DNA of 40,126 nt, taken from assembly GCA_030608005.1 (NCBI GenBank), contig JAUWIX010000010.1:1-40126 (forward strand). Direction: 5' to 3'. Positions 5,855 through 11,800 of the stretch are shown here, piece by piece. Origin of the DNA: Dehalococcoidia bacterium. Lineage in GTDB: Bacteria > Chloroflexota > Dehalococcoidia > Dehalococcoidales > BS750m-G39. The position numbers and the translations under genes were made by a program. Numbering within the stretch: the stretch's first letter is position 1; every line of letters begins with the position of its first letter. Below the pieces are notes generated by a model. It saw only the letters and a program-made list of their open reading frames with translations. It ran no database searches and was not told the origin of the DNA.

Positions 5855-6052
5855 TTACCACTCATCCCTTGAAACTGTTCTTACATCGGTCTCATAATCA
5901 AACCAGTGACCAAACATCGCCTCCGGCGGGGCGTCTTTCAGGATGCGTTCCTTCACTTCTTCGTATCGCCCCTGATACTCAGGGACTTGTTCGTCATCCT
6001 GGTCAAATACTATAACCATATCATTTTGGCATCTGATAACACTTTTAATCAT
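5855..6052 (-). CDS. Conserved small protein of unknown function
   Basis: A 65-residue acidic soluble protein, rich in Asp and Glu, with one Cys, no membrane segment and no known catalytic motif. ATG at 6052 follows GGAGAA with good spacing. The central EYQGRYEEVKERILKDAP stretch and the WF-D-E pattern near the C-terminus resemble short proteins I associate with Dehalococcoidia and other Chloroflexota genomes, from memory only. It stands alone between the signalling cluster and the divergent ABC exporter. I cannot assign a function. A small interaction or regulatory protein is possible, but nothing in the sequence proves it. Confidence 0.65.
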   Translation of the reverse strand: MIKSVIRCQNDMVIVFDQDDEQVPEYQGRYEEVKERILKDAPPEAMFGHWFDYETDVRTVSRDEW

Positions 6053-6196
6053 TATTGTTCTCCGTCTCTAGCCGCTTTAGCTCGCTAATGTTATCTATAT
6101 TCACGCCTTAATCTTAGGCTATTGCAATTAATTACCCATAAAATTGGCGTTTAGATTTCATTAAAATTTGCTATAGCGATAATCCCCTATCAAGTA

Positions 6197-6202
6197 TATA
6201 AT
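6197..6202 (+). promoter_or_regulatory. Possible -10 box upstream of the ABC exporter
   Basis: A perfect TATAAT stands 28 bases before the 24-codon leader ORF and about 92 bases before the ABC ATPase. No convincing -35 was found at 16-18 bases, so this is a weak call. Confidence 0.3.
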
Positions 6203-6230
6203 AGCCGTTGGAAATCCTAGGAACTTTTCC

Positions 6231-6305
6231 ATGAATAGGCAGGAGAATAGACCATATATAGCGGAGCTGGCTCAAAAGCTAAAGCAGAGGGAAGATGTCA
6301 AATAG
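6231..6305 (+). CDS. Possible 24-codon leader peptide overlapping the ABC ATPase start
   Basis: ATG at 6231 opens a 24-codon frame (begins MNRQENRPY, ends QREDVK) that stops at 6305, eleven bases past the ATPase start codon at 6295. An AGGA lies eight bases upstream of its ATG, and its last codons contain the GAGGGA that would serve as ribosome binding site for the ATPase. The arrangement fits translational coupling. It is too short to be sure that it is translated. Confidence 0.3.
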   Translation: MNRQENRPYIAELAQKLKQREDVK

Positions 6306-7284
6306 CCATATTATTGAGGTAGAACACCTGGTAAAGAGCTACGCAGACCTGGTAGCGGTAAATGACATCAGTTTCAGTGTTGACCAGGGGGAGGTGTTTG
6401 GTCTTCTCGGTCCCAATGGAGCGGGAAAGACGACGGTAATCAATATCTTGTGCACCTTGTCCAAGCCGACCTCAGGCAAGGCATCAATCAACGGCTTTGA
6501 TGTCACCCATCAACAGGGGCAGGTGCGTCAGTGCATCGGGCTGGTATTTCAAGACCCCAGTCTGGATGAACGGCTGACCGCCCTGGAGAACCTAAAGTTC
6601 CATTCCATGGTGTATAATATCCCCGCCTCGGTGAGAAAGGAAAGGATAGAGCAAGCGCTGAGGATGGTGGAGCTATGGGAAAGACGCCGCGACATAGTTA
6701 AAACCTTCTCTGGTGGTATGAAACGTCGCCTTGAGCTTGCCCGCGGTCTCACCCACCGCCCCAAGGTGCTTTTCCTAGATGAGCCCACACTTGGGCTTGA
6801 CCCCCAAACCCGCAGCCGCCTCTGGGATTTCATCCTCGACTTACGCCAAAGGGAGGGAACCACCGTCTTTCTCACCACCCATTATATGGATGAAGCCGAG
6901 TATGCCGACCACATCGCGGTTATGGATTACGGCAAGATAATCGCCCTAGATAGCCCAAAGGGGCTGAAGAGCATGGTGGGTGAGGATATGATTAGCCTGA
7001 GCACCGTGGATGACCAGAGGGCTCAAGCCGAACTCCAGAAGCGATACCACATCAAAGCCAGATGCGATAGTGGGCAGGTAACCTTTGAGATTGCCAATGG
7101 AGAGAGGTTTATCCCCGCTTTAATAAAGGAGTTTGACACCGACATCCTCAGCATTAGCCTGCGTCGACCCACTCTAGATGATGCCTTCCTCAAGCTAACA
7201 GGGCATCGGCTCAGGGATGAAGCGGTCAAGAGCGAGCTAAAGGAGATGGTGCGACAGCATGGTCGCTACCGGATGAGGCACTGA
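6295..7284 (+). CDS. ABC-2 type exporter ATPase (DrrA-like)
   Basis: A 329-residue ATP-binding subunit of an exporter. It has Walker A in GPNGAGKTT (about 37-45), a Q-loop in LVFQDPSLDERLTALENL, the signature FSGGMKRRLELARGL, Walker B VLFLDEPTLGLDPQ and the switch His in TTHYMDEAE. The C-terminal 90 residues form the accessory domain typical of daunorubicin-resistance DrrA-type ATPases, including RRPTLDDAFLKLTG. ATG 6295 has GAGGGA close upstream. The permease gene follows after 23 bases. The exported substrate (drug, lipid or polysaccharide) cannot be told from sequence. Confidence 0.95.
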   Translation: MSNSHIIEVEHLVKSYADLVAVNDISFSVDQGEVFGLLGPNGAGKTTVINILCTLSKPTSGKASINGFDVTHQQGQVRQCIGLVFQDPSLDERLTALENLKFHSMVYNIPASVRKERIEQALRMVELWERRRDIVKTFSGGMKRRLELARGLTHRPKVLFLDEPTLGLDPQTRSRLWDFILDLRQREGTTVFLTTHYMDEAEYADHIAVMDYGKIIALDSPKGLKSMVGEDMISLSTVDDQRAQAELQKRYHIKARCDSGQVTFEIANGERFIPALIKEFDTDILSISLRRPTLDDAFLKLTGHRLRDEAVKSELKEMVRQHGRYRMRH

Positions 7285-8116: not shown

Positions 8117-8182
8117 AAAAAGTGCCAGCTTTGCGAAGCTGGCACTTTTAAATTTCTGGTGGAGACGGGGGAGGGTCGAACT
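8117..8182. repeat. 66-bp direct repeat, attachment-site-like (displaced tmRNA 3' end)
   Basis: Identical to 11406-11471 except for two T/C substitutions. Positions 8157-8182 are the last 26 bases of tmRNA (minus strand, T-loop through CCA) and 8118-8149 are its terminator hairpin. No tmRNA body adjoins this copy, so it is the displaced original 3' end expected after integration at ssrA. Confidence 0.85.
8118..8149. terminator. Hairpin terminator, probably bidirectional
   Basis: AGTGCCAGCTT / AAGCTGGCACT with a TGCG loop, extended by A-T pairs, is flanked by an A-run on one side and a T-run on the other. It can stop the ABC exporter on the plus strand. It is a copy of the ssrA terminator. 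Confidence 0.75.
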
Positions 8183-10117: not shown

Positions 10118-10930
10118 TTAACTTACTACCGGCCTTGGTAAAAGCCTTTCCTCTAACTTTTTATCTATTGTCTCTTCAACAGTTGCCATGAGCACACCTA
10201 CGCCTGCCATGACCCGATTCAGTTTTGCGTCAACATCGCCTTTCCATCCTCCTGCTGCCACACAAGTCGCTTGAGCAATGCTCAGAACTCTAATAGACAG
10301 GTCAGCATAGTCCAAAGGGAACTGGGCAGCTTGGCAGATATTGAGGATATTCTCCAGCGCGCCAGTCGCCTCATCATAATCCCAGTTCAAAACTGACTTC
10401 TCTGCATGGGTAAGTAATGGTTTAATACAGACTTGTTGTATACACGACCATACCATTTGCATTTCGCCCTTGATATTATCAAGATACCCTTCTGGTACAG
10501 TCGCAACTGCTTCTCTTGACAGTGAAATAGCGATTTGCCAATCACCCTCAAGAGCCTGGCATAGGGCTTTTTGGAGCTTCATTTGCGCGGCTGAAGTACT
10601 TCGCTTTCGGGATGAGCTTTGTTCTAATCTATGTGTAAGTTCATCAAAAGTAATAACCTTTGGCAGCTTCTCTCTACGCTCGATAACTGACATGAGGATG
10701 AGGCGGGCAAAGGTGGAAGGCCCAATCCCTTGCTCAGCAGCTAATTTATCGAGTTTCGAACGGCTTTTGCTATCAAGGCGAATTGTTATCGGCCTATCCT
10801 TGGGAACCCTTACCCGTATCTCTTGAACCTTGGGTTCGGCAGCAAGGTCAAGCGGGCTATGCGTATCCCAATATTCCGCTTCTTGCTCCTCTGTCTCAAA
10901 TTGGGGTATAAGATCTTTCTCAATGCTCAT
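10118..10930 (-). CDS. CopG/BrnA-like ribbon-helix-helix antitoxin with long C-terminal extension
   Basis: A 270-residue protein. The N-terminal 100 residues carry the CopG-antitoxin pattern: EEQEAEYWDTHSPLDL, then a ribbon strand (RPITIRLD) and two helices (SKSRSKLDKLAAEQGI / GPSTFARLILMSVIER), which dimerise and bind DNA. Usual members end here at 80-110 residues. This one continues for about 160 helical residues (LQKALCQALEGDWQIAISLSREAV and following) that look like helical repeats and match no family I know. ATG 10930 follows AGGAGGAG. It lies 36 bases downstream of the BrnT-like toxin gene, the usual brnT-brnA order. It probably neutralises the toxin and represses the shared promoter at the palindrome 11264-11286. 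Confidence 0.75.
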   Translation of the reverse strand: MSIEKDLIPQFETEEQEAEYWDTHSPLDLAAEPKVQEIRVRVPKDRPITIRLDSKSRSKLDKLAAEQGIGPSTFARLILMSVIERREKLPKVITFDELTHRLEQSSSRKRSTSAAQMKLQKALCQALEGDWQIAISLSREAVATVPEGYLDNIKGEMQMVWSCIQQVCIKPLLTHAEKSVLNWDYDEATGALENILNICQAAQFPLDYADLSIRVLSIAQATCVAAGGWKGDVDAKLNRVMAGVGVLMATVEETIDKKLEERLLPRPVVS

Positions 10931-10966
10931 CTTTTCTCCTCCTTTCTGTTTCGGTCTTAACCTTGG

Positions 10967-11251
10967 TTAACTCTGATGCTTCTTGTAATATCGCTTCTCC
11001 TTGTCTTGCATATCTCGGGCAGTGATAACTTTATATCGTGCCCCTTTGCCTTTCTTTCTCACAACAATGAACAGGTAGCGCCCAGACACAGCCTGACCGT
11101 ATACGCAATATGAAATTGATGTGCCTTTATGACAAATTGGCTTATCATCATAAATTGCCTCTTGAACTGCTTCAGGAGTAACACGATGCTTATGCCAAAT
11201 CTTGTCGACTACAGCTTGAGTCCAAATTAACGGGTATGTTATGAAAATCAA
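10967..11251 (-). CDS. BrnT-like toxin of a type II toxin-antitoxin pair
   Basis: A 94-residue basic protein. The N-terminal W...VVDKIWHKHRVTPEAVQEAIYDD, central GRYLFIVVRKKGKG and C-terminal YKVITARDMQDKEKRYYKKH follow the BrnT order (W-x-x-K-H-x-V, then D, then a central RYLF-V strand, then I-x-AR-x(3)-E-x-x-Y). BrnT proteins are RelE-fold ribonucleases that stop translation and are neutralised by BrnA. The start is TTG at 11251 with AAGGAG five bases upstream. The antitoxin-like gene follows. A promoter with a 23-bp palindromic operator lies directly upstream. Family identity is from pattern recall, so it could be a related RelE-fold protein. Confidence 0.72.
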   Translation of the reverse strand: MIFITYPLIWTQAVVDKIWHKHRVTPEAVQEAIYDDKPICHKGTSISYCVYGQAVSGRYLFIVVRKKGKGARYKVITARDMQDKEKRYYKKHQS

Positions 11252-11263
11252 TCAAGCTCCTTT

Positions 11264-11286
11264 GTTGTAATACAATGTATTACAAC
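11264..11286. promoter_or_regulatory. 23-bp palindromic operator of the toxin-antitoxin promoter
   Basis: Two 11-base arms (GTTGTAATACA and its exact complement) around a single central base form a perfect palindrome 12 bases upstream of the toxin start. It covers the predicted -10 box. This is the position expected for autorepression by the ribbon-helix-helix antitoxin. Confidence 0.75.
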
Positions 11287-11303
11287 TTGAGGGGCAATGT
11301 CAA
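11274..11303 (-). promoter_or_regulatory. Promoter of the toxin-antitoxin-TPR operon
   Basis: Minus-strand TTGACA (11298-11303), 18-base spacer, TACATT (11274-11279). A TAATAC at a 15-base spacer is an alternative -10. Both lie within or beside the palindrome. Further upstream (11336-11366) an eight-base inverted repeat GAAGTGGT/ACCACTTC of unknown role lies between this promoter and the ssrA terminator. Confidence 0.6.
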
Positions 11304-11405: not shown

Positions 11406-11471
11406 AAAAAGTGCCAGCTTCGCGAAGCTGGCACTTCTAAATTTCTGGTGGAGACGGGGGAGGGTCGAACT
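11406..11471. repeat. 66-bp direct repeat at the intact ssrA 3' end
   Basis: Partner of 8117-8182 at an offset of 3289 bases. It comprises the tmRNA T-loop-to-CCA sequence and the ssrA terminator. It marks the ssrA-side boundary of the cassette. Confidence 0.85.
11408..11437 (-). terminator. Terminator of ssrA
   Basis: An 11-bp stem AGTGCCAGCTT/AAGCTGGCACT with a CGCG loop is followed, in the minus direction, by TTTTTATA. It starts nine bases after the tmRNA CCA. Confidence 0.8.
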
Positions 11472-11800
11472 CCCCGTCCAGAAGAAGCTGCCCAGAATAT
11501 ACTACAAGCTTAGTCAGCTCTTTAATCTCGCCTGGCTAGCCTCTGCTGACCAAGTTTAGCCAAGCCAGTCGATAACTCTTTCACCACCCTTATCGACATC
11601 TGGATGGTGGCACCTCAATTTTACGGCACCCAATCCCGACCCATTGAGGAGAGGCCGGGTGGATGTGCAACCTATTTAATTAGGCTGCGTAAGCGAATTC
11701 AGGTTCGCCAGTTATTTTTTTGCCACTTGTTTTATGAGGTTAGCGGCACCTCAGCTTGCAATCCTGCAACATACTTCCCCTGTCGAACCCACGCGTCCCC
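11446..11800 (-). ncRNA. ssrA: tmRNA (transfer-messenger RNA)
   Basis: About 355 nt, a one-piece tmRNA that rescues stalled ribosomes together with SmpB. The 5' end GGGGACG pairs with the 3' CGTCTCC in the acceptor stem; a discriminator A and encoded CCA follow. The 5' GGGTTCGACAGGGGAAG segment and the 3' GGGGAGTTCGACCCTCCCC T-arm are diagnostic. The tag reading frame ends at the TAA at 11680-11682 and can be read as GKKITGEPEFAYAA from GGC at 11722-11724; the exact resume codon is inferred. The C-terminal AYAA resembles the ALAA degron recognised by ClpXP. smpB lies just upstream on the same strand. The 3' end is an integration site. Confidence 0.95.

Follow-up and report, generated by a model that had tools for sequence, protein, structure and literature searches.

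The three-gene locus at the end of ssrA

The window analysed here is a stretch of 40,126 nucleotides from the assembly of a Dehalococcoidia bacterium (GCA_030608005.1, contig JAUWIX010000010.1, positions 1 to 40,126). Its minus strand carries three genes coding for a toxin of 94 residues, an antitoxin of 270 residues and a TPR protein of 599 residues. The original prediction had placed a toxin and an over-long antitoxin at the locus, where both reading frames are indeed present. The genes and the elements that accompany them are as follows.

10967..11251, minus strand: BrnT-like toxin, 94 aa; PF04365 match with E 4.8e-6 over profile positions 7-77 of 77; relatives 59-78% identical
10118..10930, minus strand: ribbon-helix-helix (RHH, CopG-type) antitoxin, 270 aa, with a core (1 to about 104) and a predicted helical extension (about 105-270); PF12441 match in residues 8-79; relatives share the core only
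10121..10606, minus strand: antitoxin extension module, residues 109-270, with the boundary at about residue 105; aligned with L095/L099 over 142 aa (46% identity), its start also in L045; predicted helices
8231..10030, minus strand: TPR protein of 599 aa with at least 14 repeats; Pfam TPR families; orthologues in L099 and in genome G146
11446..11800, minus strand: ssrA (tmRNA) gene, integration site; ARAGORN, and Rfam RF00023 with 173 bits
11407..11471, minus strand: ssrA-proximal copy of a 65-nt direct repeat, from base-by-base comparison
8118..8182, minus strand: second copy of the 65-nt repeat, distal to ssrA, whose hairpin (8118-8149) doubles as terminator after the TPR gene
11274..11303, minus strand: promoter-like site TTGACA-N18-TACATT from a consensus scan, its second hexamer within the palindrome
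11265..11285, no strand: perfect palindrome of 21 nt (TTGTAATACAATGTATTACAA), probably the operator of the RHH antitoxin; shuffling expects none

The ssrA gene lies upstream of the toxin gene, and the repeat consists of the last 26 nt of the tmRNA plus the terminator hairpin, the two copies differing at 2 of 65 positions. The second ssrA-end copy stands just after the TPR gene, and therefore the repeats enclose the three genes alone, in what looks like a 3.3-kb mobile unit that has settled at ssrA without an integrase. In a genome of the same family (G004, locus L184) the same rpsB-smpB-ssrA order is found, but ssrA has a single end there and both the repeat and the three genes are absent. This ssrA is an unoccupied site; its other flank differs, so that the two genomes form an imperfect before-and-after pair.

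The arrangement recalls the ssrA islands of Dehalococcoides, such as vcr-GI, in which the 3' end of ssrA is duplicated and which typically carry a CcrB-like integrase, the integration module being present in 16 of the identified islands and not in all of them (PMC3146451). As in those islands, the insertion at the T-loop region of ssrA has left a 3'-end repeat, and the window repeat includes the published repeat primer TGGTGGAGACGGGGGAGGG. This window repeat is, however, 65 nt long and runs through the terminator hairpin, compared with 20 nt in the islands, and the unit holds only three genes, with no integration module (neither a DsiB-like nor a CcrB-like recombinase).

Two other units are likewise flanked by repeats. 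In genome G276 (L048:1817-2864), a toxin and an antitoxin with a different, alpha/beta-type tail lie between ssrA-end-plus-hairpin repeats of their own (66 nt, 82% identical), 982 nt apart, which delimit a toxin-antitoxin (TA)-only unit of less than 1 kb with no integrase. In L011 (4071-5897), a toxin, an antitoxin and a small open reading frame lie between two copies (129 nt, 81%) of the 3' end of a NUDIX-like gene. The next gene, at 5943-7085, is tyrosine-recombinase-like. Such an arrangement suggests that a related unit uses a different integration site.

As regards expression, the 21-nt palindrome sits just before the toxin gene, over the second hexamer of the promoter-like site, and is the sole such site in the 1.12-Mb assembly when up to 2 mismatches are allowed. 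Counterparts occur at the same position in L010, L048, L011, L012 and L045. The TTGACA element is also found upstream of relatives, the count of promoter-like sites in the region being near chance. By analogy with established type II TA biology, the palindrome fits autorepression by the RHH core of the antitoxin. No terminator was found between the three genes, and the one after the TPR gene has a 14-bp stem followed by a T run.

Toxin, antitoxin core and alternative tails

The toxin had been described as BrnT-like, a description that survives with some qualification: the match to PF04365 (BrnT_toxin) covers the full profile, but its 27.2 bits fall under the curated cutoff of 34.5, and the toxin of the relative L010 scores 33.1 bits. 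Judged by this profile match, the protein is a divergent BrnT-like toxin. For the CopG/BrnA character attributed to the antitoxin, only the first name held, and below threshold: residues 8-79 match PF12441 (CopG_antitoxin) with E 3.5e-4 and 21.7 bits against a cutoff of 28, which antitoxins of the same family from L099 (34.1) and L002 (37.8) pass, while neither Pfam nor NCBIfam gave a BrnA match for the window antitoxin at E<=1.

One of the closest described systems is the type II pair BrnT/BrnA of Brucella; a summary of its structure is available, and for its toxin residues Asp6, Glu7, Lys9, Arg41 and Glu78 were named in RNase activity (PMC5086665). The window shares with it the toxin-first order, a BrnT-like toxin, an RHH antitoxin and a promoter palindrome that fits autoregulation. 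It differs in a toxin scoring below the BrnT cutoff, in an antitoxin that matches CopG_antitoxin and not BrnA, and in an extra antitoxin module and a third gene.

Closer relatives within the Dehalococcoidia share the toxin as well as antitoxin residues 1-105 (77% identity in L010, 70% in L011 and 55% in L012), and their antitoxins end in another tail of about 80 aa, here called alpha/beta from its sequence pattern. The similarity between the window and its close relatives breaks off at the same point in the DNA, at about residue 105, after an antitoxin N-terminal part (residues 1-95) that is up to 82% identical. Elsewhere in the family the tail is of the same kind of about 80 aa, is a LuxR/GerE HTH domain (L004), or is missing. 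As read from these alignments, a common antitoxin core is followed by one or another C-terminal module. Since the tail differs among relatives that share the core, the observation is more specific than that of an over-long antitoxin. The CopG_antitoxin/BrnT pairs with the alpha/beta tail (L010, L011, L012 and L048) have the toxin, antitoxin core and operator type of the window, but their tail is unlike that of the window and they come without a TPR gene; indeed, no TPR gene adjoins the pair in relatives without the extension.

Two antitoxins of this family deserve mention in their own right. The BrnT-paired RHH antitoxin at L004:1135-1776 has the C-terminal LuxR/GerE HTH with a Pfam E-value of 7.8e-22, and may thus combine two DNA-binding domains in one protein. 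The genome of the window itself encodes a second antitoxin on another contig (L046:2811-3242, contig C24 of G000), with no toxin match beside it; it is of the alpha/beta-tail type and N-terminally damaged.

The extension of the window antitoxin was originally taken to add about 160 residues to a 100-residue part. It exists, with the figures corrected to a start at about residue 105 and a length of about 165 aa. The view that it belongs to no recognised family was upheld, as profile and sequence searches returned no known unrelated domain and none of Pfam, NCBIfam, PHROGs, PADLOC and the PDB sequences gave a significant match for the segment (about 105-270). That it is real coding sequence follows from its gap-free alignment to an orthologue from another order (L095/L099), with 46% identity over 142 aa.

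AlphaFold2, run with an alignment of 11 rows of which just one to two others cover the extension region, predicts helices at residues 112-127, 131-144, 147-181 and 185-202, with pLDDT mostly 75-94 for residues 111-200; the pLDDT was 58 from the single sequence and 68.5 with the 11 rows. Fold searches with the extension model retrieved common helical arrangements only, many of them designed proteins, and the natural matches given by Foldseek were mostly TPR, none at E<=0.001. Sub-threshold matches of TPR type were also seen in profile searches (HemY_N, E 0.017, for the window; TPR_12, E 0.0044, for L099). The extension is best described as a helical domain outside the recognised families, possibly TPR-like. 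Its derivation from the neighbouring TPR gene was considered and rejected: the profile comparison was not significant (hhalign probability 0.8%), and a model of the TPR repeats in the neighbouring protein scored the extension no better than shuffles.

Recurrence of the extension with the TPR gene

All genomes compared are draft assemblies. The recurrence of the three-gene order in other genomes had been set as a test by which the prediction could be refuted, and the order does recur, in another order of the class. A core profile search found, in genome G793 (loci L095/L099), which belongs to the order of G379 and not to that of the window, an antitoxin with the same extension. In L099 the next gene encodes a TPR protein that aligns to that of the window over 585 aa with no gap and 43% identity, and the contig opens with the last part of a BrnT-like toxin gene, so that the toxin/long antitoxin/TPR order is repeated on one contig. 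In genome G146, the contig carrying the toxin and the antitoxin (L045) stops within the extension, and a second contig encodes, from its base 2 onwards, a TPR orthologue that is 47% identical over 524 aa (E 2e-161); the two contigs probably adjoin.

Among 35 genomes tested, the TPR orthologue was present in 3 of the 3 that have the extension and in 0 of the other 32, the same antitoxin core being encoded in 17 of these 32. Apart from the orthologues, the best TPR match had an E-value of 2e-32. The chance of 3/3 against 0/17 is 1 in 1140 if the cases are independent. The three carriers of both the extension and the orthologue span three families (f1, f49 and f51). Known instances of the three-gene unit number only three, one of them split between contigs.

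The extension is rare. The core was matched in 64 of 393 genomes of the class and, among the long-tailed matches read out, only the genome of the window and G146 had the extension, G793 having come from the separate search; where the open frame at a core match was short, some of the matches were read out. In genomes, phages, plasmids and viral contigs, the extension was not found outside the three-gene setting. Weak matches to it in L044 and L101-L104 look like chance. The identity levels suggest that the extension may have been swapped as a module between cores, the core trees (106 columns, or 192 with the toxin) being too short to place a single gain against movement between cores.

Taken together, the recurring gene order, the joint presence of extension and TPR orthologue, and the enclosure of only three genes between the repeats strongly support, at the genetic level, the linkage of toxin, long antitoxin and TPR gene as a three-component unit. 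The proposal of such a system in place of a plain TA pair is therefore supported in part, for the genetics; in mechanism, the extension may bind the TPR protein, and either of the two may sense a trigger.

Possible modes of action

With slightly less than even confidence, we propose that the locus is a mobile tripartite type II TA system at the ssrA 3' end, resembling the toxin-antitoxin-chaperone (TAC) systems, with the TPR protein in the place of SecB. The antitoxin core would repress the promoter and block the toxin, which by analogy with Brucella BrnT would be a ribonuclease. The extension would dock on the TPR protein, and the folding or stability of the antitoxin would then depend on that protein. 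A stress or a phage product occupying the TPR protein could release the toxin, as happens with the SecB-like chaperones in TAC. The unit would move by means of ssrA-specific integrases supplied in trans, and its TA function would stabilise it.

In TAC, it is through its C-terminal extension that the antitoxin comes to need a SecB-like chaperone, and this extension can be transferred to other antitoxins (PMC5105189). The toxin of CmdTAC is freed when the capsid protein of a phage displaces the chaperone (PMC11618068). The tuberculosis HigBA1-SecB system and CmdTAC share with the window the joining of toxin, antitoxin and third protein in one unit, as well as an antitoxin C-terminal extension that two-component relatives lack. 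Nevertheless, the third protein of the window is a long TPR protein and no relative of SecB. Moreover, its extension of about 165 aa, predicted to be helical and folded, is far longer than the ChAD sequences of the TAC antitoxins, which are short destabilising tags. By the SecB criterion the unit falls outside TAC, yet it may, by analogy, work like TAC. No relevant description of a tripartite TA system with a TPR protein was found in the open-access papers searched. A broader idea, possible but on the doubtful side, is that the locus represents a tripartite TA class in which a TPR superhelix would recognise a folded module at the C-terminus of the antitoxin and act as its specific chaperone and as sensor, and which would spread without an integrase via the ssrA-specific recombinases of other islands.

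The genetic linkage of extension and TPR orthologue would equally be expected if the three genes formed one functional unit in which the TPR protein is no chaperone. Together with the extension, it could serve as an adaptor by which the toxin, or the repressor complex, reaches its target (a ribosome, a protease, a membrane or a phage component); alternatively, it could modulate how the antitoxin binds DNA. The prediction for the extension is a folded domain and not a short disordered tag, and the LuxR-type DNA-binding tail in the same place elsewhere in the family implies that tails need not be chaperone tags. However, neither a target nor a further DNA site is visible, the assembly having one such palindrome, and we consider this reading rather unlikely.

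A plain two-gene TA system, with a structural extension on the antitoxin and a TPR gene that is a second cargo of the mobile unit without joint function, seems quite improbable. Genes bounded by ssrA-end repeats would travel together for any reason, and the gap of 87 nt between antitoxin and TPR genes is not tight. Against this, the extension goes together with the TPR orthologue in each of three families, the three-gene order is kept at 43-46% identity, and TA cores without the extension lack the TPR orthologue, including the one in the similar ssrA-bounded unit of L048. As to the long antitoxin being an artefact, in which an assembly error, accidental read-through or frame fusion joined an unrelated open reading frame, the abrupt divergence of close relatives at about residue 105 is what it would produce; the same fusion in two other genomes (L099 and L045), gap-free over 142 aa, rules it out for practical purposes and leaves it with negligible credence.

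Should the tripartite TA reading be correct, toxin control by a third protein would not be tied to SecB, and one TA core would be combined with different modules (alpha/beta tail, LuxR HTH or TPR-partnered helical domain), the response possibly changing accordingly. In addition, the ssrA site, known in this class for the spread of vinyl chloride respiration islands, also carries tiny TA-only units, which suggest how such regions could be stabilised.

Finally, the alpha/beta-tail antitoxins of L010 and L011 are followed by a shared small open reading frame (L010:5559-5765 and L011:5459-5686) with no Pfam match, which codes for 68-75 aa with a hydrophobic stretch and is possibly a different third component.
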